Below are positions 7,876-55,599 of a DNA stretch of 64,000 bases, piece by piece. Position numbers and translations under genes: made by a program. The DNA is from Thereva unica (taxonomy: Eukaryota > Arthropoda > Insecta > Diptera > Therevidae): the NCBI GenBank assembly GCA_949987705.1, contig OX465283.1, forward strand, positions 90,941,813 through 91,005,812, written 5' to 3'. The notes beneath the pieces are model-generated. The model was not told the origin of the DNA. It worked only from the letters and a program-made list of their open reading frames with translations, and made no database searches. Position 1 is the first letter of the stretch, and every line of letters starts with the position of its first letter.

Positions 7876-8243
7876 ATACACTCAAAAAAATAATCGTCGC
7901 GACACCACACTGTACAATGCGAAATAGAAAGACGACCCAGCAAACAATTTGGAGTAAAGTTTATCGCACGATAAAAGAGCGTAACAAAGCGATATCTTCC
8001 GGATGTAAAATTTATCGTAATTTTGTTATATTTTTATATTCTGAATGATATTGTAAGGCCGATAATAATTCGAAAAGAATTCAATTCGTTCTGGCGATAA
8101 TAGGAAGAAAAAGAAGATATTTATTCTCGTTTTCTCCTCCTTACGATAAGAAAACGATGTCATTCTATTGCGAACATATCAGAAAGAAGAAATATTTATG
8201 CTTTTCTTCCTTCTAACACAGTTGCGACACAGTGGCGATAAAC

Positions 8244-9449
8244 TTTTCTTCCTCTTAATGACATGTTATCCCTGTTTTTTCTTCCCTTCGTTAAGAAAAC
8301 GATGTATATGTATTGCTAAAATATCACCAAGAAGATGTATTTGTGATTCTCTTCCTTCTATCACACTGGCGAAACACTTTTCTTCCTCTTAATGACATGT
8401 TATCCCTGTTTTTTCTTCCCTTCGTTAAGAAAACGATGTATATGTATTGCTAAAATATCACCAAGAAGATGTATTTGTGATTCTCTTCCTTCTATCACAC
8501 TGGCGAAACACTTTTCTTCCTCTTAATGACATGTTATCCCTGTTTTTTCTTCCCTTCGTTAAGAAAACGATGTATATGTATTGCTAAAATATCACCAAGA
8601 AGATGTATTTGTGATTCTCTTCCTTTTATCACACTGGCGAAACACTTTTCTTCCTCTTAATGACATGTTATCCCTGTTTTTTCTTCCCTTCGTTAAGAAA
8701 ACGATGTATATGTATTGCTAAAATATCACCAAGAAGATGTATTTGTGATTCTCTTCCTTTTATCACACTGGCGAAACACTTTTCTTCCTCTTAATGACAT
8801 GTTATCCCTGTTTTTTCTTCCCTTCGTTAAGAAAACGATGTATATGTATTGCTAAAATATCACCAAGAAGATGTATTTGTGATTCTCTTCCTTTTATCAC
8901 ACTGGCGAAACACTTTTCTTCCTCTTAATGACATGTTATCCCTGTTTTTTCTTCCCTTCGTTAAGAAAACGATGTATATGTATTGCTAAAATATCACCAA
9001 GAAGATGTATTTGTGATTCTCTTCCTTTTATCACACTGGCGAAACACTTTTCTTCCTCTTAATGACATGTTATCCCTGTTTTTTCTTCCCTTCGTTAAGA
9101 AAACGATGTATATGTATTGCTAAAATATCACCAAGAAGATGTATTTGTGATTCTCTTCCTTTTATCACACTGGCGAAACACTTTTCTTCCTCTTAATGAC
9201 ATGTTATCCCTGTTTTTTCTTCCCTTCGTTAAGAAAACGATGTATATGTATTGCTAAAATATCACCAAGAAGATGTATTTGTGATTCTCTTCCTTTTATC
9301 ACACTGGCGAAACACTTTTCTTCCTCTTAATGACATGTTATCCCTGTTTTTTCTTCCCTTCGTTAAGAAAACGATGTATATGTATTGCTAAAATATCACC
9401 AAGAAGATGTATTTGTGATTCTCTTCCTTTTATCACACTGGCGAAACAC
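8244..9449. repeat. Nine tandem 134-bp repeats near the transposon's left end
   Basis: The word CCTCTTAATGACATG starts at 8251, 8385, 8519, 8653, 8787, 8921, 9055, 9189 and 9323, an exact 134-bp period. A tenth unit breaks off at 9457. The first two units read CCTTCTATC and the later seven CCTTTTATC, a sign of stepwise expansion. Each unit has three CTTCC-centred words, also found as ATCTTCCGG close to both transposon ends. By analogy with CACTA subterminal repeats these may be protein-binding sites (inference). Confidence 0.95.
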
Positions 9450-9508
9450 TTTTCTTCCTTTTCCCTTCATCGGTAATGTATTGGCAATAAACTTCTCTTC
9501 CTTTTTCC

Positions 9509-9545
9509 ATAAATATAACGGTTATTTGGAAATGCGTTCACTTTG
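9509..9545 (+). promoter_or_regulatory. Candidate core promoter of the transposon genes
   Basis: A TATA-like word (ATAAATATAA, near 9510) lies about 30 bp before TTCACTTTGG (near 9537), which resembles an arthropod initiator. It follows the tandem repeats and precedes the putative first exon. This is suggestive only. Confidence 0.3.
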
Positions 9546-9720
9546 GTGATAGCGTTTGACGTGCAAAGTTTAAATTTTTTAAAGGTAGAGTGTTTCAAAG
9601 TTAAAGTTTTTCGGGAGCAAAATTAAATTTTAAAATAAACGTGTTAAAGTATTTCGTTAGTGTCTGTTAAAAACTATAATTAAAATAAAATTTGTGAACT
9701 TTTGTTTGGTTAATTTTTTT

Positions 9721-9822
9721 GGTACATAATTAATTGGATTGTGCAGTATTCTTTTTTGGAGCCATCTTCGTGGTACATAATTAATTGGATTGTGCAGTAT
9801 TCTTTTTTGGAGCCATCTTCGT
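9721..9822. repeat. 51-bp direct duplication
   Basis: The sequence starting GGTACATAATTAATTGGATT is present twice back to back (9721-9771 and 9772-9822), without visible differences. It lies in the presumed 5-prime untranslated exon. Confidence 0.9.
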
Positions 9823-9857
9823 GTTGCAGCCTTGAAGCAGCGGGATTTTTTGAAAAG

Positions 9858-11009
9858 GTTAGTACATTTTTAGTTTCTTACTTTATACAATTATTACTTT
9901 GATATATTATTTTATATTATATGAGGAGTTTATTATCAAAAGGTGACATGTCCATACTTCAAGTTTTTTTTTTGTTTAAAGGATCGATTATCCTTGGTAA
10001 AATGCATAGTTTTTGCTTGAAAACAAGTTTAAAACCGCACTATATCTCGTATATAATAGACGGTAAATTCGGTTATTTTTTTCAAATTCGACACATGTAA
10101 CCGATTTTCTTCCCTAAATTTTCTTCCCCGCTTACCAAGAAAAGCAATGTTAAATTAAGTTCATAAAAAATATATTTTAGTTCAAAATGAAATGTTGAGT
10201 TCATTTTATAATTCAAAATATTAAAATAGTATCTATGATTTCAAAAAAGGTACATGTCCACCCTACCATTAAATCAGAAAGTGACATGTCCATTGGCATA
10301 TTACAAAAAGGTACATGTCCATTTTGTTTTTGCTTTTTTCACAATAACCAGTTAATGTATTTCTATGATTTTTTCACAATAAAATAATAAAATACTTTAT
10401 GTGTGTCGTCATATTTTTTAAAAATAAATATCTTTTAGGACTAAGTTCATGCACAGTTTTTACTCATTGCTGTAAAAAAATGAATGGAGGACATGTCACC
10501 TTTTGATAATAACCTCCTCATATATGGAGCGTACATTCAATGTCCACTATTTGCATGTTATGTTATTGAAATTGCAATAACTTTTTGGATATAAAATATA
10601 TCTTCTATTAAATATATGGCGTCCTAAATACCATAAGAAATAAATGGCATTTGCAAATAGCGAACTTTGATTCTGTACTCAGGTCTGTTCCAATAGACAA
10701 TGCGGTTTCCCGCATAGTTAGTAATTTTATGTCATTGCGTTGAAGACGAAAGGGTTTCTGGAATAAAATCAACTTTACTTGTTATATGTCATTCTTTTGA
10801 AGACAAGTGATTTTTGGGTTAAGGTCTTCTTGATTTGCACGCCATATGCCTAAAGCATTCCTTAACTGTTCCAAGTTTTCGCAGGTAACGACAGGCCAGG
10901 TTTTCTATTGGAAAAGACCTTTTATTTACTTTGTTATGTTTGCATTTATTTCGACATTTGTTTGAAATTGTTTTCAAAAGGGTTTTCATTTCGTTTTTCT
11001 TAAATGCAG
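9858..11009 (+). other. Putative 5-prime UTR intron before the transposase ATG
   Basis: A donor-like AAG|GTTAGT at 9857/9858 and a polypyrimidine-rich acceptor ending AAATGCAG at 11009 bracket 1152 bp. The acceptor sits one base before the transposase start codon (11011). It contains the inverted-repeat element at 9923-10519. No other long frame lies here. Confidence 0.45.
9923..10519. mobile_element. 597-bp inverted-repeat element inside the transposon
   Basis: The left end GAGGAGTTTATTATCAAAAG continues into GTGACATGTCC, and the right end is its reverse complement with one mismatch. ATAT flanks both sides. The core word ACATGTCC recurs internally near 10251, 10284 and 10313. It is non-coding and mobilised in trans, if at all. 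It is probably a MITE that landed in the 5-prime intron, since it does not touch the coding sequence. Confidence 0.65.
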
Positions 11010-11010
11010 A

Positions 11011-13038
11011 ATGTCGTCTTCTCAAAATTCTTCAAAAAATAAACGAAGAAGAGTTATGCGGGACGCGAAAAAACTGTTTGATTCCATTTATTGCGAAACT
11101 AAATCTCCTAATTCTCCTATTGACTGCTCTGAAAGAGTTGATAAACAGTTAGTGCCGAAAGCACATGAGCTGACAAATAATGAAAATGAAATTGGAAGAG
11201 AAGCTTCTTGTAGTTTTGCTACAATTGTAGAACCACAATTTCACGACCATTATTCCTTGGATTCTTCCGATTCTGATTCCGATAATGGAACTTCATTACT
11301 TAATAAGGAAAGAGAAAGTGCAGATTCACATCATTATTATGATGTAAGAGAAAATTTATCCGTTTGGATGGTAAAGCACAATATTAGTAATGAAGCGGGA
11401 AATGAGCTGTTAGAAATTTTTAGAAATTTAAATATAAATGTCCCTAAAGACGTGAGAACTTTAAAATCAACACCCTCTGATTGCTGCACATTCGCTATGG
11501 GTACAGGAAAATTTGTTTACTACAGCTTGAAAGACAGTTTAACAGACTTTTTCATGAATAATTCCTATGTTAAGGATAAAATATACATAGATATTAATAT
11601 AGACGGATTGCCAATCGCCAAAAGTTCTAATTTACAATTATGGCCAATATTATTCAATGTCGTAGGTTCAAAATACGTACATTTAATTGGTATGTATGAA
11701 GGATATTCAAAACCGCAGTCAGCAGATCTGTATTTAGACCGGTTTATAAATGAATTTCAAGAATTAAAGTTGAGCGGATTCACTTTCCAAACAAAAAAAT
11801 ATGACATTGAAATAAGATCTTTTATTTGTGACGCACCAGCTCGATCTTTTATATTAAGTGTGAAAGGTCATACTGGGTATAATTCGTGCATTAAATGCAC
11901 TGCAAAAGGAGAAATGTTTAAGAACCGTATGGTGTTCCGCCCTCAAGAGATTTATTCAAAGAGGACAAATGAGTCTTTTAGAAGGCGAACCTATCCAGAA
12001 CATCATCATTCACTAACTTCCATTGCATTGGAAAAATTAGATATTGATATAGTGCAGCAAATAGCATTAGATCATATGCACATAGTATGTTTGGGTGTAA
12101 TGAGAACTCTCATTAATGCGTGGACAAGAGTCAAAGGTCACGATTATTCTCTCCCTGGTTTTAAAATAAAGGAATTGGATGTGGCACTTATAAATCTTGT
12201 GAATTGCATACCATCAGAATTCGTTAGAAAGCCAAGATCGACAAAACATCTAGACAGATGGAAGGCAACGGAATTCCGTCAATTTCTTCTTTATACCGGC
12301 CCATTCATTTTACAACCTATATTGAGTGCAGAACGATACAAGCACTTTCTACAATTGTCACTGGCAATGCGAATTTTATGCGATGAAGTAAACTGCCTTG
12401 TATATAATGGCAGAGCAGAAGAATATTTGCAAGATTTTGTAAATAAAATACCCGACCTTTATGATTTGTCGATGCTCACATGCAATTTTCATTATCTGAT
12501 TCATCTCTCAGATAACGTAAAATATTTTAGAAGTACTTTAGAAAGTACGAGTGCTTTTAGGTTTGAAAATCACTTAAGGAAAATAAAAAGAATTGTAAAA
12601 AAACCGAACTATGTTGCTGCCCAAGTGTACAATAGACTTGTTGAAAGAAGTGTCCATTTAAATAATAAAGAAAACAATGCTGAAATTTTGTTTGGAAAAA
12701 TTAAAGGCAACGAATTGGCCAGCATCACGTTTAAGGGATTAATTTTTTCCAAAAAAAAACCAAACAATTATTGCATGAGGAATAACACAATAATAAAAAT
12801 TAAGAATATTTTGCTAAAGAATGATATCCCTTACATAGAGGGCATTGCTATTGAAAATATAGAACCCTTCTTTACTGATCCAATAGACTCTGCTTTTTTC
12901 AACATGTTCATTACCGGGAACGTTAATGAAGGACGCTCCGAGGAATTCATTTATAAAGAAATTTCGAATAAAGTTATTTGCTTAGTTGATGAAGATGTTA
13001 ATAAATATTTTTTAGTTCCTATAATTCATATAAAATGA
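11011..13038 (+). CDS. DDE-like transposase, 675 residues, intact
   Basis: This protein probably catalyses excision and integration of the surrounding transposon in the nucleus. The start follows an acceptor-like site and opens with a Ser/Lys/Arg-rich tail (residues 1-12) that could aid DNA binding or nuclear entry. Candidate catalytic acids are D198 in 'YIDINIDGLP', D274 in 'SFICDAPARSF' and E519 in 'SAFRFENHLRKIK'. Between the second and third lies 'KGHTGYNSCIKC' (H287, C293, C296), resembling a zinc-binding insertion, and 'ALDHMHIVCLGV' (about 352-363). This DAPA-GHTG-CxxC layout is shared with transposase-domain proteins common in ants, hydra and other animals, and recalls the tnp2 type of CACTA elements. 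No frameshift or internal stop is present. The stop overlaps the next gene's start (ATGA). Exact superfamily is uncertain. Confidence 0.85.
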   Translation: MSSSQNSSKNKRRRVMRDAKKLFDSIYCETKSPNSPIDCSERVDKQLVPKAHELTNNENEIGREASCSFATIVEPQFHDHYSLDSSDSDSDNGTSLLNKERESADSHHYYDVRENLSVWMVKHNISNEAGNELLEIFRNLNINVPKDVRTLKSTPSDCCTFAMGTGKFVYYSLKDSLTDFFMNNSYVKDKIYIDINIDGLPIAKSSNLQLWPILFNVVGSKYVHLIGMYEGYSKPQSADLYLDRFINEFQELKLSGFTFQTKKYDIEIRSFICDAPARSFILSVKGHTGYNSCIKCTAKGEMFKNRMVFRPQEIYSKRTNESFRRRTYPEHHHSLTSIALEKLDIDIVQQIALDHMHIVCLGVMRTLINAWTRVKGHDYSLPGFKIKELDVALINLVNCIPSEFVRKPRSTKHLDRWKATEFRQFLLYTGPFILQPILSAERYKHFLQLSLAMRILCDEVNCLVYNGRAEEYLQDFVNKIPDLYDLSMLTCNFHYLIHLSDNVKYFRSTLESTSAFRFENHLRKIKRIVKKPNYVAAQVYNRLVERSVHLNNKENNAEILFGKIKGNELASITFKGLIFSKKKPNNYCMRNNTIIKIKNILLKNDIPYIEGIAIENIEPFFTDPIDSAFFNMFITGNVNEGRSEEFIYKEISNKVICLVDEDVNKYFLVPIIHIK

Positions 13039-14340
13039 ATGAAGCCGAGGTGCAGCAAGAAGAACAGCACGGGGAAGACATTTTCAGAGAAATAAACGAA
13101 TACCTTCCAACGTTCCAACCCCCAAGCGAAAGTTTTAACTACCAAGAATTCCTGCGGATAAATCCAGGTTTGTATGGATCCTTATTTCTAGAAACACATT
13201 TCCATAACTTTGTTTTCACAATAGGTAATAAACCAGTGACCTCAACACAGGCTCTCCAAACCAACGACGCCAGTGTGGGCTTAGACGAAATTGTGCTGAT
13301 TGTTGATCCAGCACAAAAGAATCAACATCAACAAGTGCCTACAACCAATAATTTTATGCAGGAAGTACTGCAAGAACTTCACAACCTTACAAAGAAGTTC
13401 GATCAAACTGCACAGTTGCTAGACCAAAATAAAAATATGGTTTTGCGATTAACGCAGGAGATCGCTTCACTAACTGAAGAGGTGAAGGAGTTAAAAAAAA
13501 ATTCTTCCAAAAATACAAGCGAAGAAGCAACTTTACTGCCACAGCTACCTTTAAATGAACCCTCTCTACTGAGGGAATTCGACAGAGTGCTCTTGGACGA
13601 CCCAAAGGCCCGATCTCAACTTGTAAGTACCAAATATATAACATTTTAATTTAAAGCAATGTCATTAACAATACTTCATTATTACAGAAAACCTTATTTA
13701 CGCGCTCGGGCAAGGAGACCGCAGCCGAATTTCTCCGCTACAACCTGCGGAAATTCATCACCGATGAATTGTCCAGACAATATACCTGGAATGGAACCAA
13801 GGAAAAGGATAGCATTAAGCTATTCCATTTCATCAAAGTATTGAAAGGTAAGAAACCCAATAATATTGTTAATGAATAATTGTCCCAATTCTTTTTTAAA
13901 TTTTCAGTATTTTACTTTCGAACTTTCTTTAATAATTTTTCTTTAAGTACTTTGTTTTTTCACAACTAATCACTTCGTTTAGTTGTTGCTAATGCAATGG
14001 TTTTGTTATCATTAATTTAATTATTTCAGATTTTATGCAGTATTTGAACGCCATGTACTGAGAAAAATTATTTAGAAGTACATCATAATTGTAAAAAAAA
14101 GTACATAATTTCTCTCTATCTGTTAACCATTATCTAATTTTATTTTATATTTTTACAGGAACCTGTCTAGAAATGTTTCCCTCATCAACTGAAAATACGA
14201 TTCATCACATATTACAACAACATTTCCTGCATGCCGCAGACCGCATAAATAAACGTTCGCGGCAATCGACATCTGCGACTGCATCATTGCCTGAGACTCC
14301 AACCTCGGCAGGACCATCTCCACCACCGATTGTCACTTAA
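13035..14340 (+). CDS. DUF4806-type transposon accessory protein, three exons, ~309 residues
   Basis: The exons I infer are 13035-13622, 13688-13847 and 14159-14340. They join in frame through GTAAGT...TACAG and GTAAGA...TACAG introns (phase 0 and phase 1) and end at TAA (14338-14340). The N-terminal half is acidic and Gln-rich. Residues about 105-160 form a likely coiled coil ('LRLTQEIASLTEEVKELKK'). The C-terminal part spanning the exon joins ('FLRYNLRKFITDELS', then 'YTWNGTKEKDSIKLF') fits the DUF4806 pattern, a domain of unknown function seen in many insect proteins. Its ATG overlaps the transposase stop by four bases, so both may come from one transcript. By analogy with the TnpA/TnpD pair of CACTA elements it may bind the subterminal repeats. 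That role is inference; the splice model and open frame are what the sequence shows. Confidence 0.75.
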
Positions 14341-14632
14341 TTAAAAATGTATTGTAATGTAGAAAATATATGTATGTACTTTATTAAATTTTAATTTAAT
14401 GTTAAATATGTTAATGTTAAGTCTTTAATTTTCATAAAATTAAGTTATAACTGAAGTAAAAAATTTCATTTAGTTTTATTATAACTGAAGTAAAAAATTT
14501 CATTTAGTTTTATTATAACTGTATGAAAAATTTAATGTTAATATTGATGAAATGAATATATTTTATTTTTATAAAATTTCAATAACATAACCTTTTCTAT
14601 TTCTTTTTCAATCCTTATTTCTCTATTTCAGA

Positions 14633-14790
14633 CTTTTTTCAGGAGACCCTATTTAAGATGTTGGGTTCTGCTTTTATTTTAAATTCAATCGTCATCTATT
14701 TATAATTTTCTATGCAATACAAAATTATAAATAAATCACGATTGAATTTAAAACACAAGCAAAACCCAAAATCCTGAATACCCCATGAAT
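14633..14790. repeat. Imperfect hairpin downstream of the DUF4806 gene
   Basis: 'ttttaaattcaatcgt' near 14684 pairs with 'acgattgaatttaaaa' near 14738, and 'gggttctgc' with 'gcaaaaccc'. The loop is about 40 bp and AT-rich. It could act in 3-prime end formation or be a decayed small element. Confidence 0.6.
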
Positions 14791-14847
14791 TCTATTGTTG
14801 CATAAGTGTCATGCGAGCAATAAGAATGCGAATCGCGTTAATATCTT

Positions 14848-15372
14848 CCCAGCAAACAATTCTTATCTTCCGGAATACAGAAAGCGATTCGCCATCGAAG
14901 ATATCTCTATCTTCTGGGATATCGTCTTGACTGCACCGGAAGATAGTTTCGTTGGGAGAAAATGGTCCGCCAATGCGATACCCCCAGAAGAGATCCATGC
15001 GTAACAACAAGGCAATAATAATGCGAATTGCGGGAGCGAGAAGAAAGCGAATTGAGGAATTATCGCCGAAGGGAATTGTTTTCGTATCGCGTGGAGGATA
15101 AGAATTCGTATCTAATTCTTATCCTCCACGCGATACGAAAACAATTCCCTTCGGCGATAATTCCTCAATTCGCTTTCTTCTCGCTCCCGCAATTCGCATT
15201 ATTATTGCCTTGTTGTTACGCATGGATCTCTTCTGGGGGTATCGCATTGGCGGACCATTTTCTCCCAACGAAACTATCTTCCGGTGCAGTCAAGACGATA
15301 TCCCAGAAGATAGAGATATCTTCGATGGCGAATCGCTTTCTGTATTCCGGAAGATAAGAATTGTTTGCTGGG
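14848..15372. repeat. 525-bp near-perfect palindrome forming the transposon's right end
   Basis: The left arm starts CCCAGCAAACAATTCTTATC at 14848, the same word that begins the transposon. The right arm is its complement ending at 15372. The centre near 15110 is GGATAAGAATT-CGTATCT-AATTCTTATCC with a 7-base loop. Bases before 14848 are TT while GA follows 15372, so the palindrome has no target duplication of its own. It therefore seems to be part of the larger element rather than a separate insertion. Open frames on both strands are mirror images and not genes. Confidence 0.9.
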
Positions 15373-15627
15373 GAAAAGAAAATAACGGGCATGCTTTCTA
15401 TGAGAGAGAGATAGACAGACAGGGAAACATGCGCACGCTGCACGGCACAACTATACCAAAAAGTGTCGTTACAACTTTTGGTCTTAATTTTTTCCGTCTA
15501 GCCCCCTTTCGCAACGCGCGATAAGGAACTTCGTTCCAATAATTTTATTGCACTGTAGGGATTTTCAGGTACCAGGTCCGGTAACATCGGGGGCGTAATA
15601 CAAATAAAAATACCTGCAAGTTACAAT

Positions 15628-16559: not shown

Positions 16560-19234
16560 AACTACCGGACCCTGTAAAAACACACACAGTTAAGAAGCAA
16601 AGCCCTAGAATGGACGGGAAAAACGGCAACAACTATTTCAACAGCACCTGGAAATAATTTTCGGAGCATGGAAAACGCGACGTATATTTAGAACTGCAGC
16701 GGTTAAGTCATTATTGGCGAAGTGAGCAGATATCCAATAAAATTACTCGCGTTACAAGAGATCAGATGTATAGAAGAAGGAACAAAGGACCTTGGCACCT
16801 ACAGGATGTTCTACAGCTGCGGAAGGGAACATTACTTAGGAGTAGGCTTCGTAATACACAAGTCGGTTATAGATAATGTGGTAGAGCCCAAACCAATCAG
16901 TTAACGACTATGCTCAATATGACTCCGAACGAAATTCTTCACCCTTTCACGTACATGCGGAGACGAAGGAGAAAGCGGACACGATAAAGGACACTTTATA
17001 TTATAGGCTTGAACACGCATATGATACGGCCCCTTCCAATGACATTAAGATGGTGATAGGAGACCTCAACGCCAAAATTGGAAGAGAGAACTGGCACAGA
17101 CCGACCATTGGAAAGGAAAGTCTCCGCGAAACATCAAACGATAATGGGCAACGTGTTATCGATTTTGTAATGGGCAAAAATATGATCGTCAGCTCAACAT
17201 ATTTCCCAAGAAAGGACATTCACAAATACACGTGGCAATCTCCCAGGGAAAGATACTGCAATCGAATAGGCCGTATACTCATAGACAGCAGGGCAGCTTC
17301 CAGTATCCTCCAAGTAAGATCCTGCGAAGGTGCGAATCGGACCACTTCTTAGTTAAAGCTAGATTATCGAAGTCGGCTGTTCACCCAAGAAAAAAGAAAC
17401 AACAAATTAAAGAAATTCGACGTTGATCGCCTCCAAGAGCAGATCGTATTGGAGAGATATCAGGCAACTCTATCTAGCAGATAGGATAGGTCTAAACATA
17501 AATAATGCGAAGACAGTTAAGGGAAAATGGACAAGACTGAAGACGATACTAACAGATGTCACGAAGGAAACTGTAGGCTACAAACAGCTAGTATAGAAGC
17601 AAGCAATAGAAATAAGAAAAGATGTACAGAGAGATCAACGAGTAACAAGAAATTGAAATAGGAGGATACAAGATCCGCAAAAAACTTCTACAGGAAGAAC
17701 AAAAGACAATTCTTCAACAAGTACATCCTGAGGACAGGGGAAAATTTTGCACAAAACAAAACTCGGGAAGTATACAAGGAAGTAAACTTCTTCAAGAAAG
17801 GCTTCAAACCCTCCTCCGGTATATGTAAAACAAGATAGGGCGCTATAGCCACAGGCAGCAAAGATGTATAGAAAGCATTTAAGAAATTTTGTTGCGAGCT
17901 GCTGAACGCAATTGAGAGCATCCGATATGTACCGGTACCCCGTCTACGACATAACGATGACACTAGATAACAAATGCACCAACCCTGGAAGAATGACAGA
18001 GTGCCATACAAACCTGAAAAACAACAAATCTCCACGAATTGATAACATACCAGCAGAGTTTATCAAAGAAGGAGCAGATTCGCTTTCAGCAGCTATACAT
18101 AAATTACTCTGCTGCATATGGAGGAACGACAAAATCCTTCAAGATTGGAAATAAAGCATTGTCTGCCCAATACACAAGAAAGGGGACAAAGTCACCTTCT
18201 CTTTTAAGCACAGTATATGTATAAAATAATGGCAAATATAATTAAGGCCAGACTGGAACCTTATGCAGAAGCCACAATAAGTGAATACCAAGCTGGATTC
18301 AGAATAAATAGATCAACAATAGATAAACTTTTTTCAATAAAGCAAATCCTGCATTTTCGCCTAGGAGTACAACATCGAAGCGTGTCTACTTTTCAGCGAC
18401 TTTAAACAACGACAGCATCGACAGGAGGCAAATGTATGCGACAATACTGGACCTAAACATCCCACTAAAGATAGTAAAATTAACAAAACTGGCAATGGAA
18501 AACACAAAGTGTGCAGTCACAAGGAGAATTGACGCAGTCCTTCCCAGTCAAGCAAGGCTTAAAGCAGAGCGATGGGCTAGCACCCATGCTATTTAATCTC
18601 TGCCTAGAAGGAGTAATTCGCAAAGTAAACATTGATGCGAACGCAACCCTGCTTATCAAATCAAAACAGTTGGCAGGATATGCCGATGATATAAACTGCC
18701 TTGCTAGATAACTGTCATACCTTAGAGAAAGATTCACGGAATTATAAGAGCGAGCTGAAGAAATGCAGACAAAAGTAAAATTCAGTCAAGCGTGGAAAGA
18801 AGAAGAAACCACAACGCCACCTGGGAGGAACATAACTTTGAACGGGTAAACAAATTTAACTACCTTGGGTCCATAATCAGCGAAGACAACGATAGACGTA
18901 CAAAGAAGAATAACAGAACATACTTCTCACTACTACCAGTAAGGATATCCAGGGACTTCTACAGAAAAACAAAAATAAGAATCTACAAAACCATCATACG
19001 TACAATAGCTACGTAGCATGAAATATCTCCCAGAAATCCGCCGACAAGATGGATATATTTAAGAGGAAGGTTCTCAGAAGGATGTACGGCCCAACCAATG
19101 AAGAATATACATGGAGAATGCACTACAATTACGAGTTGTACTTATACAAAGAGTATGAACTTCCGACCCATGCCAAGCTACTGCGTTTTCTTTGGGTCAG
19201 TCATGTCCAAAAAATGGATGGTATAATATATTTT
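16560..19234 (+). mobile_element. Decayed RTE-like non-LTR retrotransposon
   Basis: Fragments in shifting frames follow the order of a LINE ORF2. Endonuclease pieces are 'LLALQEIRCIEEGTKDLG' (16743 on), 'VIGDLNAKIGRENWH' (17053 on) and 'KYTWQSPRERYCNR' (17226 on). Reverse transcriptase pieces are 'NIPAEFIKEGADSL' (18044 on), 'EYQAGFRINRSTIDKL' (18283 on), 'FPVKQGLKQSDGLAPMLFN' (18541 on) and 'LAGYADDINCLA' with the YADD box (18670 on). C-terminal pieces are 'KFNYLGSIIS' (18856 on) and 'FKRKVLRRMYGPTNEE' (19056 on). Many stops and frameshifts separate them. The EN/RT wording matches insect elements usually placed near RTE; I am not certain of the clade. A Helentron-like element follows at 19235. 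Confidence 0.8.
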
Positions 19235-19461
19235 TGGAACGAAGTTCCTTATCGCGCGTTGCGAAAGGGGGCTAGACGGAAAAAATTAAGACCAAAAGTT
19301 GTAACGACACTTTTTGGTATAGTTGTGCCGTGCAGCGTGCGCATGTTTCCCTGTTTGTCTATCTCTCTCTCATAGAAAGCATGCCCGTTATTTTCTTTTC
19401 GTCTTTCTATTTCGCATTGTACAGTGTGGTGTCGCGACGATTATTTTTTTGAGTGTATACA

Positions 19462-20322
19462 GGTTGTTTTTGTTTTGTTATTTTTGTTGTTTTTGTTGTT
19501 TTGGTTGTTTCTGTTGTTTTTGTTGTTTTTGGTATTTTTGTTGTTTTTGTTGTTTTTGTTATTTTAGTTGTTTTTGTTGCTTTTGTTTTTTTGTTGTTTT
19601 TGTTATTTTTGTTGTTTTGTTGTTTTTGTTATTTTTGTTAGTGTTTGCTGTTTCTGTTGTTTTTGTTGCTTTTGTTGTTTTTGTTGCTTTTGTCGTTTTT
19701 GTTGTTTTTGCTATTTTTGTTGTTTTTGTTGTTTTTGTTGTTTTGTTGTTTTTGTTACTTCTGTTGTTTTTGCTGTTTTTATTGTTTTTGTTGCTTTTGT
19801 TGTTTTTGTTATTTTTGTTGTTTTTGTTGTTTTTGTCGCTTTTGTTGCTTTTGTTGTTTTTGTTGTTTTTGTTATTTTTGTTGTTTTTGTTGTTTTTGTC
19901 GCTTTTGTTGCTTTTGTTGTTTTTGTTGTTTTTGTTGTTTTTGTTGTTTTTGTTATTTTTGTTGTTTTTGTTGCTTTTGTTGTTTTGTTATTTTTGTTGC
20001 TTTTATTATTTTGGTTGTTTTTGTTGTTTTTGCTGTTTTTGATGTTTTTGATGTTTTTGTTGCTTTTGTTGCTTTTGTTGTTTTTGTTGTTTTTTTTGGT
20101 TTTTGTTGTTTTTGATGTTTTTGTTATTTTTGTTGCTTTTGTTGTTTTTGTTGTTTTTGTTATTTTTGTTGTTTTTGTTGTTTTTGTTGTTTTTGTTATT
20201 TTTGTTGTTTCGTTGTTTTTGTTATTTTTGTTGTTTTTGCTGTTTTTGTTGTTTTTGATGTTTTTGTTGTTTTTGTTGCTTTTGTTGTTTTTGTTGTTTT
20301 TTTTTTGTTTTTTTTTTGCTTT
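19462..20322. repeat. Microsatellite tract, (TTTTTGTTG)-like, copy 2
   Basis: About 860 bp of TTGTTTTTG-type repeat with GCTTTTG and ATTTTTG variants. Its length and variant order are close to copies 1 and 3 but not identical, as expected from slippage after duplication. All long frames on it are low-complexity and rejected as genes. Confidence 0.95.
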
Positions 20323-20324
20323 TG

Positions 20325-20770
20325 TAGCAATTACAAGTGTTGCAGATTTATGTGCAGCAGAGTGTGTAATGGAAAACGGCGTTACCTTAATCATGGCAGT
20401 CATATATGTCTCACCAAATAACAAATTATTAGATATTCAGGAGTTCATTCATCGAGCGCTGCTAGAGTATTCTAAAGATGTATCTCGAACACTTAGCAGA
20501 TACAACAAAAATTTAGATAAAGTTCCACTCATTTTGGCCGGTGATTTTAACATCAACTTCAGTAATGAAAAATCAAAACCATTAATACAGTTTCTAGAGG
20601 AAGAATTTGATTTAAGAATAAACAATAATCCAGCAGAATCAACAACAAAATATAATACTACCATTGATGCAGTTTTTTCAAGACATTTAAATAAAATAGA
20701 GTCCCAAACATATGTTTCCTACTTCAGTTACCACAAGCCAATTATTACTAAAATTGAGCATACTGATTAA
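20325..20770 (+). pseudogene. Endonuclease domain remnant of a Helentron protein (copy 2)
   Basis: The residues are the same as in copy 1, with 'ILAGDFNINFSNEKS', 'TTIDAVFSRHLNKI' and 'SYFSYHKPIITKI', ending at a normal stop (20768-20770). The only apparent way into the frame is through the microsatellite, so expression is doubtful. It is probably the captured 3-prime end of an autonomous Helentron gene whose Rep and helicase parts were lost and replaced by repeats. Confidence 0.75.
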
Positions 20771-20911
20771 GTTTATATTACATTATATTTATTAATAATA
20801 AAAAAAATTGTACTATAACTTAAAAACAAAATTTTTATTACAATTCCTTCACTAATTAATCGAAAGGAACTTCGTTGCATCCCGGTGTCCCTTGACACCT
20901 CTTTGTTTTTT

Positions 20912-22899
20912 TTGTAGATAATCGCCTAATCTACAAACTTTGTTAACACAATTTTCTGATAAGACGTACGGTTTAGCATATATTTGCAAAAAACTGATAT
21001 TTTGGCCCTTTGACCTTGAATAAAAAAGTTTGCAGTCGTCCAATCGCGTGGCAGTCTCTACACCTTATGTACCTATAATAATGTTTTTAAGGGCTGTTCC
21101 AATTTTCAGCAACTTCCGAATTATCTCCCAATTATGGCGTTTTTTCGTGTATTTTGACTGGACTACTGTCTTACATTAGTACTTAAAACTTGCTTTTGAC
21201 TTTTTAGCTCACTTTTTGTCACAAGGGCGTCGTTTTTGAAGTGAAACTTCCTTGCTCTCGTTCTGAGGATTTTGAATTAATTCGCTCAAGTACGAGTGAA
21301 TTCAGAAAACTGAAACGAAAACAAGGACAGGTGTACGAAACGGAAGTTGCCTTCTCACTCATTTACATAATCGGAAATTTAGTGATGACACACACCGCAC
21401 CAGCAGGATAATATTTACAATTTATTTAAATTGGTCATACATAGATGGCTCAGGCATCGGTAAAGTAAAATGGGGAGTCGGTTATTTAAAAAAATGAGAT
21501 TGTGTATTAATTATTAAATATAAAATTTTTGTAAAAGCAGCGAAATATTTTTGATTTTTTGTTAATTAAAACTAAAAGTGTTCTTGGTAATATATATTTG
21601 GATACATATGCAATAACTCGAGTATTGTCATCTCGCTCTAGGTTGGAGTGAGATCACAATTACATTATCGACAGTTAGTTGGCTACAAAGTGTGATTAGT
21701 TTTGAAAAATATTTGTTTAATAATTGTAATAAGTGATATTTAAAACAATTAACTTGTATTTTGAGGTGTTTATTGTCATTTAGTGTTTTTCCGTACAAAC
21801 AGGATTGTTTTCTATTGAGGCAAGTGATATTGTAGCGCAAAATATACGTGAGTAAAATTTCTGATAATCTTTACATTAATATATTATCTTCAATTTTGCA
21901 ATGATTAAATTTTAATTGTATTAAAATATATAATATATTGCCAGAATTGAGATTTTGACCGTATTCCGTAATATCAACCAGTGAAAAAGAGTAAATTTAA
22001 GTGCTTTCGCTGTGATTTAATAGCATACATGAAAGTGTTATAACTTGAAACTAGCTGGGTTCCATTGGGAGATATGCATAATATTACCGCCAGGTTTTCA
22101 AGCTTTAGCTACTTAAAAATAGATGGCTTTTGCTTTTTACGGTTAAGTAAATTGTTTATTAAATATTTGAAAGTGCATTTTTAAAGTAAATATTTAAAAA
22201 TGGCAAATATAATATATATGGTAAGATATAATATTTTCTTCTATTATATAAATAATAATTCCTTCAAATTTATTTTTAGGACAATAAATTAATTTGATTT
22301 TATGTTTTCTCGCACTAATATCTGATATTAAAAAAAATACAATTAATACAAAGTACATATAGACATAAGTATGTAGGCGATGTTTCGCTTCTGCCTTGTG
22401 TTCTTTAATACACAATAATTTTTTTTTTAATTTTTTAATTATTTTGTAATTTTAGTATATTTCTAAAGACACCTTCCTCCACATCTGTGTTAAAATTGGC
22501 TTGCATATGAATTTTCTCCTATATATTTCTTTCGTTTCCTGGACTAATAGCGGCGTTTTAGTAGCTCTGAGACCGACCAAAGTTGCATTCCCCTGCTCTC
22601 TTGTGGCCACATTTGTAACTAACTAGACGCAAGCAATTTCTCCGTGGTTTATATTTCTAAACAGAATATTGTCAAGTAAGACTATAATCTGGAGCTCGGT
22701 TTACGCGTGTGGTCTAATAAATGTGTTGAAATGGTGGATGTTACAACTTGGTAGAATTGACTACAACTCATGGGGTCACGGAGCAACCCATAAATTTACA
22801 AAAAGTTGCGGCATTAACAAGCCATCCTCGAACAGAACTAATTGAGTGATGTTATATAGATAAATAAAAAATTGTTTTGAACAAAAAACTTAAATTTAA
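20912..22899. other. No recognisable gene
   Basis: AT-rich sequence without long frames. A GTGAGT donor-like site near 21849, after a stretch rich in short frames, could mark an untranslated exon, but nothing else supports one. No inverted or tandem repeat stands out. Confidence 0.3.
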
Positions 22900-24123: not shown

Positions 24124-24350
24124 TTTTAATTAGCTTTAATATTTTTTAATATTGTCTTAGTTTTATGAAAGCCTTTTATTAATTTCATATGTTGCTATGC
24201 TTATATACATTAACTCTTATTACTTTTTTTATAATTCCATTTTTAGCTTATGCTTGCATATTGTTTTAAATTTGTTTAATCTTTTTCATGATTTTGACCA
24301 CTTCGTTGCGTTGATGCTTCTAATGTTGTTTTTCTCATTGCTTATATATT

Positions 24351-27241
24351 GTGTTTTTAGTTGCCCTCCTGATGCTGGCCGCTGTTATACTACCGATCTT
24401 CGTAATGATGGGTAGTACGAGTACGTTTGGTTCTGTGTATGATGTGGGTAGACTGCTTAATATCATTTGCTCTCAAGAAGAATTGGATGTACTCAACATA
24501 TGTTACTTTAATGCAAGAAGCCTGAGGAACAAGATTGATGACTTGAGGGAAATGTTTGATAACACTAGAGTGAATGCGCTTTTGGTCACTGAGACGTGGT
24601 TAAATAGTGATATCCCTTGTTCTTATGTGCATCTACCTAACTTTACCATTCATCGTAATGACAGGCCTGATAGAATTGGAGGGGGTGTGGCTATCTACGT
24701 TTCCAAATCATTGCCGTCGAAAATCATCTACAGATCCACCGGTGATCAGTGTGAGTTCATTGTTGTCGAGGTCAAAACGCACAGTGACTTGTGTTTACTT
24801 GTATCTGTGTACTGCCCGCCCAATTCGTTCAATGAAGTCAATGCAGAAGAGCTCTCTAGCGTTCTCTCTAGGCTTGGTAGGCAGTATAGAGATATTCATA
24901 TTGCTGGAGATCTCAATGTTGACTTGCTTAAGTCAAACCGTAGAAGCAGTACGTTCACATGGTTATTCCAATCTGTTGACATTGAGATCTTAAACAATCT
25001 CCCAACGTTTAATAATTGCATGCGACCTTCTTTGCTTGACGTTCTTGCCACTTCGAGCGTTGAAAGGGTGGTTCGTTGGAGTCAACTTTCACCTCCCAGC
25101 CTATTCGACCATGACTTCCTTTTTCTATCTGTGAGATTTTCATGCTCAGCATCGGCCTCTCGTCAATTCATCACATACAGGGATTATAGAAATATTGATT
25201 ATGAAACCATTTACCAGAAATGCCTCTCGTTACCTCTAAACGCGATATTTAGTCTACACTCGATTGACTAGAAAGTACAGGTGTTCACTCCCCTTATTTT
25301 AGCTGTTTTCAACGAGTGTGTTCCACTCAAACGAATTCCTAAGAAGCCGGAATGTCATAACTGTCCTTGGTTTAATGCCGAAGTAAGGCTGCTAATCCAG
25401 GAACGTGAACTCCTTTATCGTAGGTACAGACGGCTGAGAACTACTGAATCTTTCAGTAGGTATAAGCACATCCGTAATATGGCTAACAAAAAATTCGTCT
25501 CGCTAAGCGGGAGTTCAATGCGGCTAAGCTTAATTCTGACCTGCCACCCAAACAAGTATGGAAGAATATACGTAAACTTGGTATACATACTGGGCCTGCA
25601 AATGCTAGCGACCTTAACTTCGACACCGAGCTTATGAATCAATCATTTATCCAACCGTTAATGCCCTTAGATACTAATCTAGAACAGAGAGCTGCACTCT
25701 CGTTTGAAGGCTTCAGCTTTAGATGTGTGGATGCGGCCGAAGTGCTTGCATCGCTAAATTCTGTTCGTTCAAATGCCACTGGTATTGATGGTGTTGAACC
25801 TCAATTTTTCAAGCTTATCATACCATATGTGATCGATGCAGTTACTCACATATTCAATTGCTGCCTAACCTATTCTGTATTTCCCCGTGCATGGAAGAAA
25901 GCGTTCATTGTGCCAATACCTAAAAAAACCTCTCCCTCTGACATATCTGACTTCAGGCCAATTAGTATCTTATCCTACCTGTCCAAGGTTCTGGAGAGAA
26001 TTATGTATGATCAGATTCAATCCTTTCTTGTTGAACGTAACTTACTGTGTGAATGGCAATCTGGCTTTAGGCGATTTCATAGTTGTGAGACTGCACTGCT
26101 GAAGGTCACCACGGATATTCGAGCTAAGTTGGATGATAACGAGACCGCGGTGTTGATTCTGCTTGATTTCTCAAAAGCCTTTGACACCGTTAATCACAAA
26201 CTCTTGCTGTATAAATTTGCCGCTCTCTTCCATTTCTCGTCCTCTGCTATCTCCCTCCTCTCCTCATTCCTCTCCAACAGGTCTCAGTGCATCAAGTTCA
26301 ATGACAAGTACTCATCCTTTCTTCCTGTGCCATCAGGAGTACCGCAGGGCTCTGTTCTCGGACCTTTGCTCTACACATTATTCACGAATGATATGTCTAC
26401 TGTCATCCGGAACTGTTGTTTTCACTTCTTTGCTGATGATACGCAACTATATACCTCATCTTCATCTGATAAGCTAGGTGAATGCATTAAAAGAGTGAAT
26501 GATGACTTGCGCAGTATCTCAAGCTGGGCGTCTAATAACTATCTTCGACTCAATCCTACCAGGTCCGTGGCACTATTTATCAGCCGTCGCTCAGTTAATG
26601 CCCATGAGCTAAATACTATCACGATTGATGATACTCCTCTACGTATTTTGAATAAAGCTACGAATTTGGGTATTGTGGTGAACTCGACGTTGACTTGTTG
26701 CGATCACGTCTCGCTGATCCTTAGTAAAGTTTATAGTTGCCTTCGAAGGCTATGGTTGTTTGGTAAACTCCTACCTCAACAGTCACGCCTAAGACTGGTA
26801 AAGAGCCTCATCATGCCGCATTTTTTGTACGGCATCTCGAGTTATATTGCTTTGGATGCCATTTGCAGGCGTCGTCTGAATGTGGCATTTAATGACTGCA
26901 TTAGATTCTGTTTTGGCTTACGACGAAATGCCCATGTTTCGACTTATCGCAAATTTCTTATCCCCTGCGAGTTCTTGTCTTACCTTGACATACATGCATT
27001 ATGTTTACTCTATAAGGTACACTTTACCAGTAATCCCAATTACTTGACTAATTTTATAGTACCCTTACAGTCACGTCGCCTGTTAAGCTTCCGCATACCT
27101 TCTTTCAAGAGCAGAATTGGTGGTCGATCCTACTTCTTGCACTCAATCAGACTGTGGAATAATTTGCCTCCCTCTATAAGGGGAGCCTCTTCAGCGGCGG
27201 TTTTCAGGAGCAAACTTTTAAAGCATTTTTCTGTTGGTTAA
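24351..27241 (+). pseudogene. CR1-like ORF2: endonuclease and reverse transcriptase, one stop and one frameshift
   Basis: The protein would nick target DNA and copy the LINE RNA in place. The endonuclease region starts after about 40 residues ('NICYFNARSLRNKIDDLRE'), with 'VTETWLNSDIP' (catalytic Glu), 'HIAGDLNVDLLKSN' (Asp/Asn) and 'FDHDFLFLSV' (His). An in-frame TAG lies at 25269-25271. Near 25490 the frame shifts, and the reverse transcriptase then runs uninterrupted to 27241. Its boxes are 'VLILLDFSKAFDTVNH', 'GVPQGSVLGPLLYTLF' and 'HFFADDTQLYTSS', so the catalytic Asp residues are kept. No RNase H follows, as usual for this group. The small number of lesions suggests a fairly recent insertion. 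Confidence 0.85.
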
Positions 27242-28400: not shown

Positions 28401-29261
28401 TATAGATTTTTTCAAACGTCTTGAAATTCCGCGCATCTACCCCAACTAAGCTCTTAAAAATGTTGAAAAGCTCGGACAAAGCTCCATTTAACTCCTCCTA
28501 TCAAATCACTTGCTCCCATTTAATCAGTCGCGACTGCGTTTTGCTACAGGAAGATGTATTTTTCTGGGACTTCAATGATTATTTTAAAAATTTGCAAATT
28601 ATGAATGATAAGTTTTTGTATTTTACACATTTACTGTAGAAATAATTTGTAGCCAATTTCTACTAAATAAATACAAAATTTGTGTCTTTATCACTGTGAT
28701 TACTGTTGAAGTTTTCCGCCAGTCGCATGCACGCTTCTGCCTGGAGAGGTTGTGCTGCATGCGACTGCGGAGAGTTATCGTTTTATGACTGAAAAAGCTC
28801 ATGTACATACATATTTAAGAGAAATTTTGTCAGAATTTTTTTTAAATTATTTTAAAGGACATCATTCATTTTGGACCAAAAACTGAAAGTGCCGGCCAGG
28901 ATAAAAATGTGTAATATTCGGATAGAACACCCAATTCCTATCATTTTTGACTACGGCACCAAATCTGTGCGCCCTTTGGTTACGGTGTTACATACTTTTA
29001 AAATACAATAAAAATGTTATTATGATGTTGTTATTGGAACGAAGTTCCTTATCGCGCGTTGCGAAAGGGGGCTAGACGGAAAAAATTAAGACCAAAAGTT
29101 GTAACGACACTTTTTGGTATAGTTGTGCCGTGCAGCGTGCGCATGTTTCCCTGTCTGTCTATCTCTCTCTCATAGAAAGCATGCCCGTTATTTTCTTTTC
29201 GTCTTTCTATTTCGCATTGTACAGTGTGGTGTCGCGACGATTATTTTTTTGAGTGTATACA

Positions 29262-30084
29262 GGTTGTTTTTGTTTTGTTATTTTTGTTGTTTTTGTTGTT
29301 TTGGTTGTTTCTGTTGTTTTTGTTGTTTTTGGTATTTTTGTTGTTTTTGTTGTTTTTGTTATTTTAGTTGTTTTTGTTGCTTTTGTTTTTTTGTTGTTTT
29401 TGTTATTTTTGTTGTTTTGTTGTTTTTGTTATTTTTGTTAGTGTTTGCTGTTTCTGTTGTTTTTGTTGCTTTTGTTGTTTTTGTTGCTTTTGTCGTTTTT
29501 GTTGTTTTTGCTATTTTTGTTGTTTTTGTTGTTTTGTTGTTTTTGTTACTTCTGTTGTTTTTGCTGTTTTTATTGTTTTTGTTGCTTTTGTTGTTTTTGT
29601 TATTTTTGTTGTTTTTGTTGTTTTTGTCGCTTTTGTTGCTTTTGTTGTTTTTGTTATTTTTGTTGTTTTTGTTGTTTTTGTCGCTTTTGTTGTTTTTGTT
29701 GTTTTTGTTATTTTTGTTGTTTTTGTTGTTTTTGTTATTTTTGTTGTTTTTGTTGCTTTTGTTGTTTTGTTATTTTTGTTGCTTTTATTATTTTGGTTGT
29801 TTTTGTTGTTTTTGCTGTTTTTGATGTTTTTGATGTTTTTGTTGCTTTTGTTGCTTTTGTTGTTTTTGTTGTTTTTTTTGGTTTTTGTTGTTTTTGATGT
29901 TTTTGTTATTTTTGTTGCTTTTGTTGTTTTTGTTGTTTTTGTTATTTTTGTTGTTTTTGTTGTTTTTGTTGTTTTTGTTATTTTTGTTGTTTCGTTGTTT
30001 TTGTTATTTTTGTTGTTTTTGCTGTTTTTGTTGTTTTTGTTGCTTTTGTTGTTTTTGTTATTTTTTTTTGTTTTTTTTTGATTT
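29262..30084. repeat. Microsatellite tract, (TTTTTGTTG)-like, copy 3
   Basis: About 820 bp. Shorter than copy 2 through loss of several repeat units; the variant order is otherwise parallel. Confidence 0.95.
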
Positions 30085-30086
30085 TG

Positions 30087-30532
30087 TAGCAATTACAAGT
30101 GTTGCAGATTTATGTGCAGCAGAGTGTGTAATGGAAAACGGCGTTACCTTAATCATGGCAGTCATATATGTCTCACCAAATAACAAATTATTAGATATTC
30201 AGGAGTTCATTCATCGAGCGCTGCTAGAGTATTCTAAAGATGTATCTCGAACACTTAGCAGATACAACAAAAATTTAGATAAAGTTCCACTCATTTTGGC
30301 CGGTGATTTTAACATCAACTTCAGTAATGAAAAATCAAAACCATTAATACAGTTTCTAGAGGAAGAATTTGATTTAAGAATAAACAATAATCCAGCAGAA
30401 TCAACAACAAAATATAATACTACCATTGATGCAGTTTTTTCAAGACATTTAAATAAAATAGAGTCCCAAACATATGTTTCCTACTTCAGTTACCACAAGC
30501 CAATTATTACTAAAATTGAGCATACTGATTAA
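30087..30532 (+). pseudogene. Endonuclease domain remnant of a Helentron protein (copy 3)
   Basis: Same residues as the other two copies across the domain ('ILAGDFNINFSNEKS', 'TTIDAVFSRHLNKI', 'SYHKPIITKI'), with a stop at 30530-30532. The upstream junction with the microsatellite differs (TTTGATTTTGTAGC against TTTGCTTTTGTAGC in copy 2). There is no own start codon before the domain. Confidence 0.75.
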
Positions 30533-30769
30533 GTTTATATTACATTATATTTATTAATAATAAAAAAAATTGTACTATAACTTAAAAACAAAATTTTTAT
30601 TACAATTCCTTCACTAATTAATCGAAAGGAACTTCGTTCCATCCCGGTGTCCCTTGACACCTCTTTGTTTTTTCATATTTAATATATTTGTCCAATTGTA
30701 TTAAAATAACATATCTTATTAACATTTTATTTCTCATTGTATTTTAAAAGCATGTAACAACATAACCAT

Positions 30770-40396: not shown

Positions 40397-41166
40397 CGAC
40401 CGCTGGACTGCCAGAAGTTTCTGGACCTGGGAAATTGGTAGCACCAACTCCTACAACTTCTAGGGGGCTATGTCCTATGCCGGACCCAACTGACGTACTG
40501 CCAAAACGGCAGCGGTCTGAGGATTCTCCGGCTGGGCAGGGACCCCAGAAGAAGAAAAAAAGGGGGAGTCGCAAGGACCCTCATACCGGGATAAGCTAGC
40601 TGGGATCACCATGGCAGTGGTCCTGGACAACTATCCCGAGGGCAAATTGACAGAGGAGCAATCATCCTCCGTCTGCGATGCCATCCTGTCTGAGGTAGAC
40701 AAAAGTCGTAAAGGCGATTGTCCGCCTCAGTTTTTGGGTGCAAGGGCGGCAGGGGGTCTCATCAAGATCACCTGCGCCAACGAACCCACCAGCCAATGGT
40801 TGACAAATGCTGTCACCAGGCTTCAGTTGTGGGAAGGGGCCAACCTCAGAGTAATTGAGGAAAAGGACCTTCCCAAATACAAGCGAATCACGTTCTGGGT
40901 TCCTAACGATGTTAGGGAACCGGAGCAGGTGCTCTGCAGGCTGGAAGTACAGAACCAGCCAATTGAGGTGACCTCTTGGCAAGTGATGGGCAGGAAGGTG
41001 GACCAGAACGGTCAAACTCTTGCCCTTAGCATTGACGAGAGGGCGCTCGCGCAGCTTAAAGAGCAGGGCATGTCCCTATTCTACGGCTTCGGACGAATTA
41101 GAGACAAGGAGATTGGCTCAAAAAAGGAGACTCCTGCTGGCTCACAACAGCGGGAACAGCCTCAGG

Positions 41167-44100: not shown

Positions 44101-44788
44101 TCATGAGAACTTAAGAAGGGCCTACCAAAATAAACGGATTTTTATCTTCTCTGATAGCCAAGCGGCAATTAGAGCGATAAGGTCCCGTAGGACCAAGTCG
44201 AAATTAGTTTGGGACAGCCAACGTGCTCTTCATGAGTTGGGCGTTCTCAATCAAATTACACTTGTCTGGGTCCCGGGTCACCGGGGCTTCGAAGGCAATG
44301 AAAGTGCGGATGCCCTGGCTAAACAGGGCTCTGATTTAGAATTCATTGGTCCAGAGCCGGCTATTGGGGCACCGTCCAGCTTGCTGCAAAAGGCCCTGGC
44401 CGATCGGACCTTGATGAAACATATTGAACGCTGGAGGTCCGCGCCTGGACTGGCCAACTCTAAGCGGTTCCTTCCAGTGCCGTCCCCTAAAACGGCCAAG
44501 GAATTATTACGGCGCAGACGGAGTGATGTTAGGACACTTGTTGGCTTAATTACCGGACACTGTGCCCTAAATTACCACTTATGGAAGATAGGAAGGGCGG
44601 AGGATCCTACTTGTAGGCTTTGCCTAGAAGAGTATGAGTCTGCCCTCCATGTTCTCTGTGAGTGCCCTGCAATAGCGAGGAGCAGGGTCTCTTTGTTCGA
44701 GAAGTCCCTGCTCGAACACTCAAGTCTAAGCGACAAACCACTAGGCAGACTGCTGAGCTTGTTCAGGCGGTCTGGCCTACAAATATGA
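41167..44788 (+). pseudogene. LOA-like ORF2: endonuclease, reverse transcriptase, RNase H; one stop, one frameshift
   Basis: The start 'MRVVQCNLQHSRAA' fits the family. The endonuclease shows 'ALVQEPWVNKSA' (Glu), 'IGCDANAHHDAWGSSG' (Asp/Asn) and 'CSDHRHIYF' (His). Reverse transcriptase shows 'YKSPGADGIYPILLQ', 'FLDIEGAFDNTSFD' (first Asp) and 'YADDVVIVITG' (Asp-Asp). A TGA at 43090-43092 replaces the Gly codon of the usual QGGVLSPLLW box. Near 43760-43790 the frame shifts. RNase H follows with 'YTDGSKTETG', 'FQAEVYAI', 'FSDSQAAI' and 'GNESADALAK', so all four acidic residues remain. The tail 'CRLCLEEYESALHVLCECP' is the CCHC-like motif. The low lesion count suggests recent activity. Confidence 0.88.
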
Positions 44789-55490: not shown

Positions 55491-55599
55491 GTTTTATTTT
55501 AGTATCGCTGACTTACATTTGTCAGAGCTATTTTACTAGTATACTTAATTTCTAGTTCGCCCGCGTAGGCTGATGTTTTTGGGTGTTTCAAGTTTACTA

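Follow-up and report, generated by a model that had tools for sequence, protein, structure and literature searches.

A 64,000-nucleotide stretch of the genome of the fly Thereva unica (Therevidae; assembly GCA_949987705.1, contig OX465283.1, positions 90,941,813 to 91,005,812; hereafter the window, whose coordinates are used throughout) harbors a complete two-gene DNA transposon at 7936–15372. Based on its borders, its transposase and the recurrence of its second gene next to related transposases, we read it, with a probability of roughly two in three, as an autonomous cut-and-paste transposon of the CMC(T) kind, belonging to a lineage with CCCA...TGGG ends. In this reading, a DUF4806 (BEN-type) protein would act as the end-binding partner of the transposase, whose tail possibly tethers the complex to nucleosomes.

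The element and its two genes

The borders of the element read AGACGA/CCCAGCAAACAATT ... AATTGTTTGCTGGG/GAAAAG (slashes mark the insertion points), and all three exact occurrences of CCCAGCAAAC in the window lie inside it. The repeat that it interrupts is present in two further window copies (19230–20913 and 29031–30673, both on the minus strand). The left flank aligns with them for 399 bp up to 19399 and 29199 (100% and 97.7%); the right flank aligns from 19400 and 29200 onward, over 171 and 170 bp (98.8% and 100%), in both cases on the minus strand. Since the two copies run unbroken across the insertion point with GA present once, both empty sites are real. A preliminary description of this DNA had thus placed the borders exactly, at GA, and its two empty sites were borne out; the ends are 14-bp perfect inverted repeats. 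It called the interrupted repeat a Helentron; no Rep or helicase domain was found at E 0.001 in the 10 scanned of the 29 window open frames with 190 aa or more, and the empty-site argument is independent of that label. The features are as follows.

7934..7935, no strand: left target-site duplication GA (single GA at both empty sites)
7936..7949, +: left terminal inverted repeat CCCAGCAAACAATT, 14 bp, perfect (inverted-end comparison)
8228..9459, no strand: left subterminal tandem array of a 134-bp unit, 9.2 copies, 99% matches (repeat scan)
11011..13038, +: gene 1, intact transposase of 675 aa in a single open frame (open frame, motifs)
11332..12681, +: transposase core, ~residues 108–557, RAG1/Transib-like fold (predicted model)
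12679..13017, +: C-terminal domain, ~residues 557–669, BAH-like fold (predicted model)
13035..13622, +: gene 2 exon 1, with a probable coiled coil and the first part of DUF4806; start codon overlapping the stop of gene 1 (gene model)
13688..13847, +: gene 2 exon 2, DUF4806 domain (gene model)
14159..14340, +: gene 2 exon 3, end of DUF4806 and tail, stop at 14338–14340 (gene model)
14848..15106, +: left palindrome arm, 259 nt, beginning with CCCAGCAAACAATT (100% complementary to the right arm)
15114..15372, −: right palindrome arm, 259 nt, including the right terminal inverted repeat (100% complementary)
15359..15372, −: right terminal inverted repeat, 14 bp (inside the right palindrome arm)
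15373..15374, no strand: right target-site duplication GA (single GA at both empty sites)
19399..19400, −: empty site 1, uninterrupted target in the second copy of the host repeat (flank alignment)
29199..29200, −: empty site 2, uninterrupted target in the third copy of the host repeat (flank alignment)

The motif residues of gene 1 are D198, D274 and E519, C293/C296, H494/H498 and D354xxH357. D198, D274, C293/C296, H494/H498 and E519 were invariant both in an alignment of 37 sequences and in all 13 host-genome proteins compared, with the D198/D274/E519, C2C and H3H test following the CMC(T) motif definition of PMC12730594. The best Pfam match was DUF1258 (PF06869; E 2.5e-5), whose score of 24.4 bits lies under the cut-off of 33.1, and the relative P0120 revealed matches to both DUF1258 and Transposase_21, each under its cut-off. 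In predicted models, the core displayed the RAG1/Transib-like fold that characterizes CMC(T) transposases, at a sequence identity of ~10% in structural alignments. By motifs and predicted fold, the transposase, whose gene had rightly been described as intact and open, belongs with the CMC(T) transposases (EnSpm/CACTA, Mirage, Chapaev, Transib) and is not an unfamiliar one. It has 2720 protein relatives at E <= 0.001, the closest named ones from flies. Searching viral contigs and prokaryote genomes with the transposase profile gave 12 and 14 pattern matches, respectively, among which no relative was confirmed; at least 120 stretches matching the 14-mer CCCAGCAAACAATT in viral contigs were taken as chance.

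The C-terminal domain of gene 1 has a BAH-like fold in the predicted model, which recurs in that of a fish relative, and the BAH domains of DNMT1, BAHCC1, TNRC18, AIPP3, ZMET2 and ASI1 were matched across both. On these models, the tail of gene 1 would have a BAH fold. Several results weigh against this: the alignments behind the two models overlap by 16 sequences, the Foldseek E-values for the BAH chains are not significant, a 22-sequence profile found no BAH domain among PDB sequences up to E 10, and Pfam detected none in any of the 22 members. The 22 sequences are 14–40% identical to the domain of the window, with four invariant positions. The chance that the domain is a beta-barrel merely resembling BAH, with no role in chromatin binding, falls only somewhat short of even; the sequence results favor it, and a common fold proves no function, while the matching of several BAH domains in two models argues for the BAH assignment. 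The sole PDB sequence match of the profile up to E 10 was the chromatin protein Mis18-binding protein 1 (weak, E 0.93).

For gene 2, splicing was predicted with GT-AG introns positioned by eye. The predicted 309-aa product just passes the Pfam cut-off for DUF4806 (PF16064; E 1.3e-5, 25.9 bits against 25), in agreement with the open DUF4806-type second gene of the preliminary description, and its middle part revealed many weak coiled-coil matches in Pfam. Against the protein collection, it had no match at E 0.001. When a profile of 11 of the partner domains treated below was compared with an alignment of two BEN sequences (BEND6 and chain 4ix7, which we take to be Insensitive), the match was collinear over 69 of 90 columns at an hhalign probability of 73%, and a PDB sequence search gave a weak match to the BEND6 chain (E 0.32). 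These matches are suggestive, not proof, of a BEN-type domain; DUF4806 is named a BEN subtype in a passage of PMC11075544, citing Pan et al. The stop of gene 1 and the start of gene 2 overlap as ATGA at 13035–13038, and gene 2 of the relative L130 starts in the same way. Coupled translation was rejected as a general mechanism, since in the other families examined gene 2 starts elsewhere downstream. Gene 2 of L143, of L148 and of the spider protein P0053 begins alike, with an N-terminal W[IV]...WP stretch that is absent from gene 2 of the window. The UniProt name 'DUF4806 domain-containing protein' of Photinus P0087 was not supported by Pfam.

Ends across the lineage and relation to known transposons

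Searching the window and 20 further transposase loci of the host genome for CCC-type ends resulted in 13 elements with ends defined by copy comparison or by an end motif matched on both sides, with L147 entering the count via its sister copies. Left out, with no usable end on both sides, were L129, L130, L132, L133, L134, L138, L142, L143–L146 and L148. The ends were CCCAGCAAAC in seven elements, CCCTGCAAAC in one (L135), CCCAGTTGGG in three (L147, L149, L150) and CCCAGCGGGA in two (L151, L152); 12 of the 13 are of the CCCA...TGGG type and one is CCCT...AGGG. Equal 2-bp flanks were found in 11 of the 13 (GA, TC, AA, AT, AA, AG, CA, CG, TA, AC, GA) and equal 3-bp flanks in none; L140 and L152 displayed neither. 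Duplications of 2 bp fall within the CMC(T) range of 2–5 bp, and their association with the ends, put forward earlier as something to look for in relatives, was found in most of these elements. At seven unsettled loci, we sought inverted ends with equal 2-bp flanks, considering only pairs beginning with CC; a CCCA pair was found in L143, L144, L146 and L148 and none in L134, L138 and L145. The ends of these four are weaker, since the duplication served as a search criterion and other pairs occurred at each locus.

EnSpm/CACTA elements (PF02992 Transposase_21, DUF4218) also encode a DDE transposase that has the C2C and H3-4H motifs, and some relatives matched Transposase_21 and DUF4218 weakly. 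Maize En/Spm is likewise a two-protein element, with TnpD and TnpA; here TnpA binds at the ends or in the subterminal repeats, aiding assembly or regulation of the complex. Fungal EnSpm elements have CAC..GTG ends and a 3-bp duplication (PMC12730594). In contrast, the ends of our lineage begin with CCC and are of the CCCA...TGGG type as opposed to CA..TG/CACTA, equal 3-bp flanks occur in 0 of 13 elements, the 2-bp duplications are of any sequence, and the elements add a DUF4806/BEN-type partner and a predicted BAH-like tail to the transposase. Mirage elements make a 2-bp duplication specific for TA, whereas the duplications here are mixed (GA, TC, AA, AT, AG, CA, CG, TA, AC), with TA only once in 11 (L149). 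A passage of PMC3985635 equates DUF1258, which gave gene 1 its best though sub-threshold Pfam score, with the Mirage group and places it close to Transposase_21. The predicted core fold of gene 1 likens it to Transib and RAG1. Differences from these are the low identity (~10%), the 5-bp target duplication of Transib as opposed to 2 bp, and a RAG2-like partner, which was not seen here. Partner proteins or BEN-like domains are also found in more distant systems. In Nuwa (PIF/Harbinger), the partner is a Myb protein (PMC12730594), but both the transposase group and the DNA-binding domain are different; in bacterial Tn3, a domain with a BEN-like fold (DBD1) recognizes the transposon ends, as stated in a passage of PMC9579193, but it lies inside the transposase TnpA itself, and the element is bacterial. 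CMC(T) lineages mostly have 5'-CA..TG-3' ends (2025 survey), from which the CCCA...TGGG termini of our lineage differ; this does not disqualify it, since the source says 'in most cases'. Altogether, no named group tested combines these termini with untargeted 2-bp duplications, a DUF4806/BEN partner and a BAH-like tail.

The element might be a known EnSpm or Mirage family in Repbase, with its partner annotated there and no new biology, which we consider unlikely, at something under one chance in three. The transposase is clearly CMC-like and its relatives are abundant, as this would predict. On the other side stand the CCCA...TGGG ends, which differ from those of most CMC(T) lineages in the 2025 survey, and our literature search on DUF4806, BEN and BAH with transposons, in which the pairing was not described, though a curated Repbase or Dfam entry may exist outside that search. 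None of the published mentions of DUF4806 found, in the passages concerned, links the domain to a transposon, with a Hydra paper listing it beside transposase domains, and a search on 'BAH domain' with transposase and CACTA gave nothing. Within the literature searched, and with Repbase outside it, the earlier statement that no well-described family pairs these genes held.

Recurrence of the gene pair

The host genome (910 Mb, 930 contigs) was searched for the transposase, with 66 of 984 candidates scored, which resulted in at least 69 matches. Among those listed, the copies of the element's own family, mostly broken pieces, were 56–100% identical, and other families 32–49%. The 20 loci fetched were examined for a partner with an iterative DUF4806 model built from two seeds. 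At 16 of them, a DUF4806 domain was found downstream on the same strand, ~0.5–1.3 kb away (4.4 kb at L138), including families with transposases only ~34–46% identical to that of the window. When 10 of these partner domains were run against Pfam itself, DUF4806 was recognized in seven. No clear partner was found at L129 and L132 (broken own-family copies), L133 (partly unreadable) and L145 (E 0.11). On the reverse strand, used as a control, the only strong hit was at L140 (E 4e-10), in an inverted second copy of the 3' part of that locus; the next had E 0.09. A genome-wide search with PF16064, in which 150 of 339 candidates were scored, gave at least 95 matches. Of the 69 transposase matches listed, 13 had a same-strand DUF4806 match 446–2631 bp downstream, with 0.29 expected within 20 kb. 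Outside the host, protein P0053 of the spider Oedothorax gibbosus contains the transposase and DUF4806 in a single gene model; its DUF4806 part found only itself among proteins of similar length and no confirmed relative in viral contigs.

Some results qualify the pairing. The best final E-value at each paired locus was below 1e-5, but by that stage these hits had been built into the iterative model; a model from only the two seeds put 10 of the 20 loci below E 0.05. In addition, 82 of the 95 DUF4806 matches listed lay near no listed transposase. Six of these 82 were hand-picked from the better-scoring part for upstream inspection; three had a transposase or its remnant just upstream and three had none within ~3.7 kb, so that DUF4806 exists outside this setting too. 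The latter three (L154, G000:C155:178900-182900; L155, C1:133024900-133028900; L156, C5:57791700-57795700) could each be a host gene, a domesticated copy or a solo remnant. Thus, the adjacency of the two genes that the preliminary description proposed checking is widespread, though it does not always hold.

In a midpoint-rooted FastTree of 64 transposases, the partner-bearing families of the host genome fell into three separate parts and the spider protein into a fourth. If correct, the tree would make the pair as ancient as the sampled group, unless it was exchanged between lineages. This distribution also bears on the idea that the DUF4806 gene is a regulator or a cargo for escape from silencing, e.g., a chromatin factor sustaining expression of the element. 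Fungal EnSpm-like and other transposons do carry TET/JBP genes, likely as anti-silencing cargo (PMC12730594). Cargo should be patchy, whereas gene 2 recurs downstream in the same orientation across the tree and looks more core-like; we give this alternative about one chance in five. That a host gene was captured by chance, or that adjoining insertions made the pairing accidental, is highly improbable: the many isolated DUF4806 matches and the three inspected loci without an upstream transposase would suit it, but the excess of same-strand pairs and the position of DUF4806 between the ends of the element itself, seen in several families whose copies have different flanks, contradict it.

Subterminal repeats and proposed mechanism

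The final 525 bp of the element are a perfect palindrome of two 259-bp arms and a 7-nt loop. By sequence comparison, it looks like a derived feature, since the same-family copy L131 ends without a second internal end motif. In another family, the terminal 191 bp are doubled head to tail in L139, L141 and L142, each copy ending in GTTTGCTGGG, and L140 harbors the same duplication plus an inverted copy; together with the palindrome, this suggests recurrent end duplication in the lineage. The left and right ends of the element have 26 8-mers in common, compared with a mean of 4.8 and a maximum of 15 in 300 shuffles, the terminal inverted repeat being counted. GGAAGAT and GCGATA were rejected as a shared subterminal binding word; we claim no binding site, since they are not conserved at both ends of other families. 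Further repeats include a perfect tandem duplication of a 51-bp unit upstream of gene 1 (9720–9823), possibly promoter or first exon, and a 64-bp imperfect inverted repeat (86%, 3-nt loop) directly downstream of gene 2 (14650–14780). Tandem arrays with a period of ~118 bp occur at or near L136, L138, L143 and L145 (~87–91% alike between the first two, ~85–92% between the last two). The window itself is transposon-rich, with LINE-like frames for endonuclease and/or reverse transcriptase, one set with RNase H, at 24324–27241, 40987–44788, 53023–55498 and 61126–61752; a 1.6-kb stretch at 48279–49847 equals its own reverse complement at 94% identity.

For the element read as an autonomous CMC(T)-kind transposon with a BEN-type partner, we propose the following mechanism. 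The DDE core would cut at the CCC/GGG ends and join across a 2-bp stagger, chemistry that is deduced from its fold. The DUF4806 protein would most likely bind the ends or subterminal repeats and help in assembling or regulating the complex; its recurrence and its domain suggest this, as do the parallels with En/Spm TnpA, Nuwa and Tn3. In the least certain step, the complex may be anchored to nucleosomes through the predicted BAH-like tail. In the RAG recombinase, the DDE core is coupled to the histone-reading PHD finger of RAG2, and it is this analogy, together with the fold of the tail, that points to contact with chromatin. A wider and more tentative proposal, to which we give about one chance in three, is that CCCA-ended elements form an undescribed, animal-wide RAG1-like branch, a long-standing two-protein machine of BAH-reading transposase and end-reading BEN partner, and that the scattered DUF4806 genes of animals are largely its offspring.

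If the reading is true, DUF4806, a domain of unknown function, gains a context and a testable role. A transposon home would also explain the expansion of DUF4806 in some genomes: the Hydra paper counts it with the expanded domains, next to those of transposases (69 and 54 in the first two columns of its table, 0–6 elsewhere), and a passage of a beetle paper flags it as enriched and defers it to future work. The element lends itself to direct assay: it is complete, its ends and empty sites are known, and both genes are open. With a RAG1-like transposase that bears a chromatin-reader-like fold, it becomes testable whether cut-and-paste elements can pick sites or evade silencing via histone marks; if true, this would be a second, independent coupling of a RAG-like nuclease to a histone reader, beside RAG1/RAG2.

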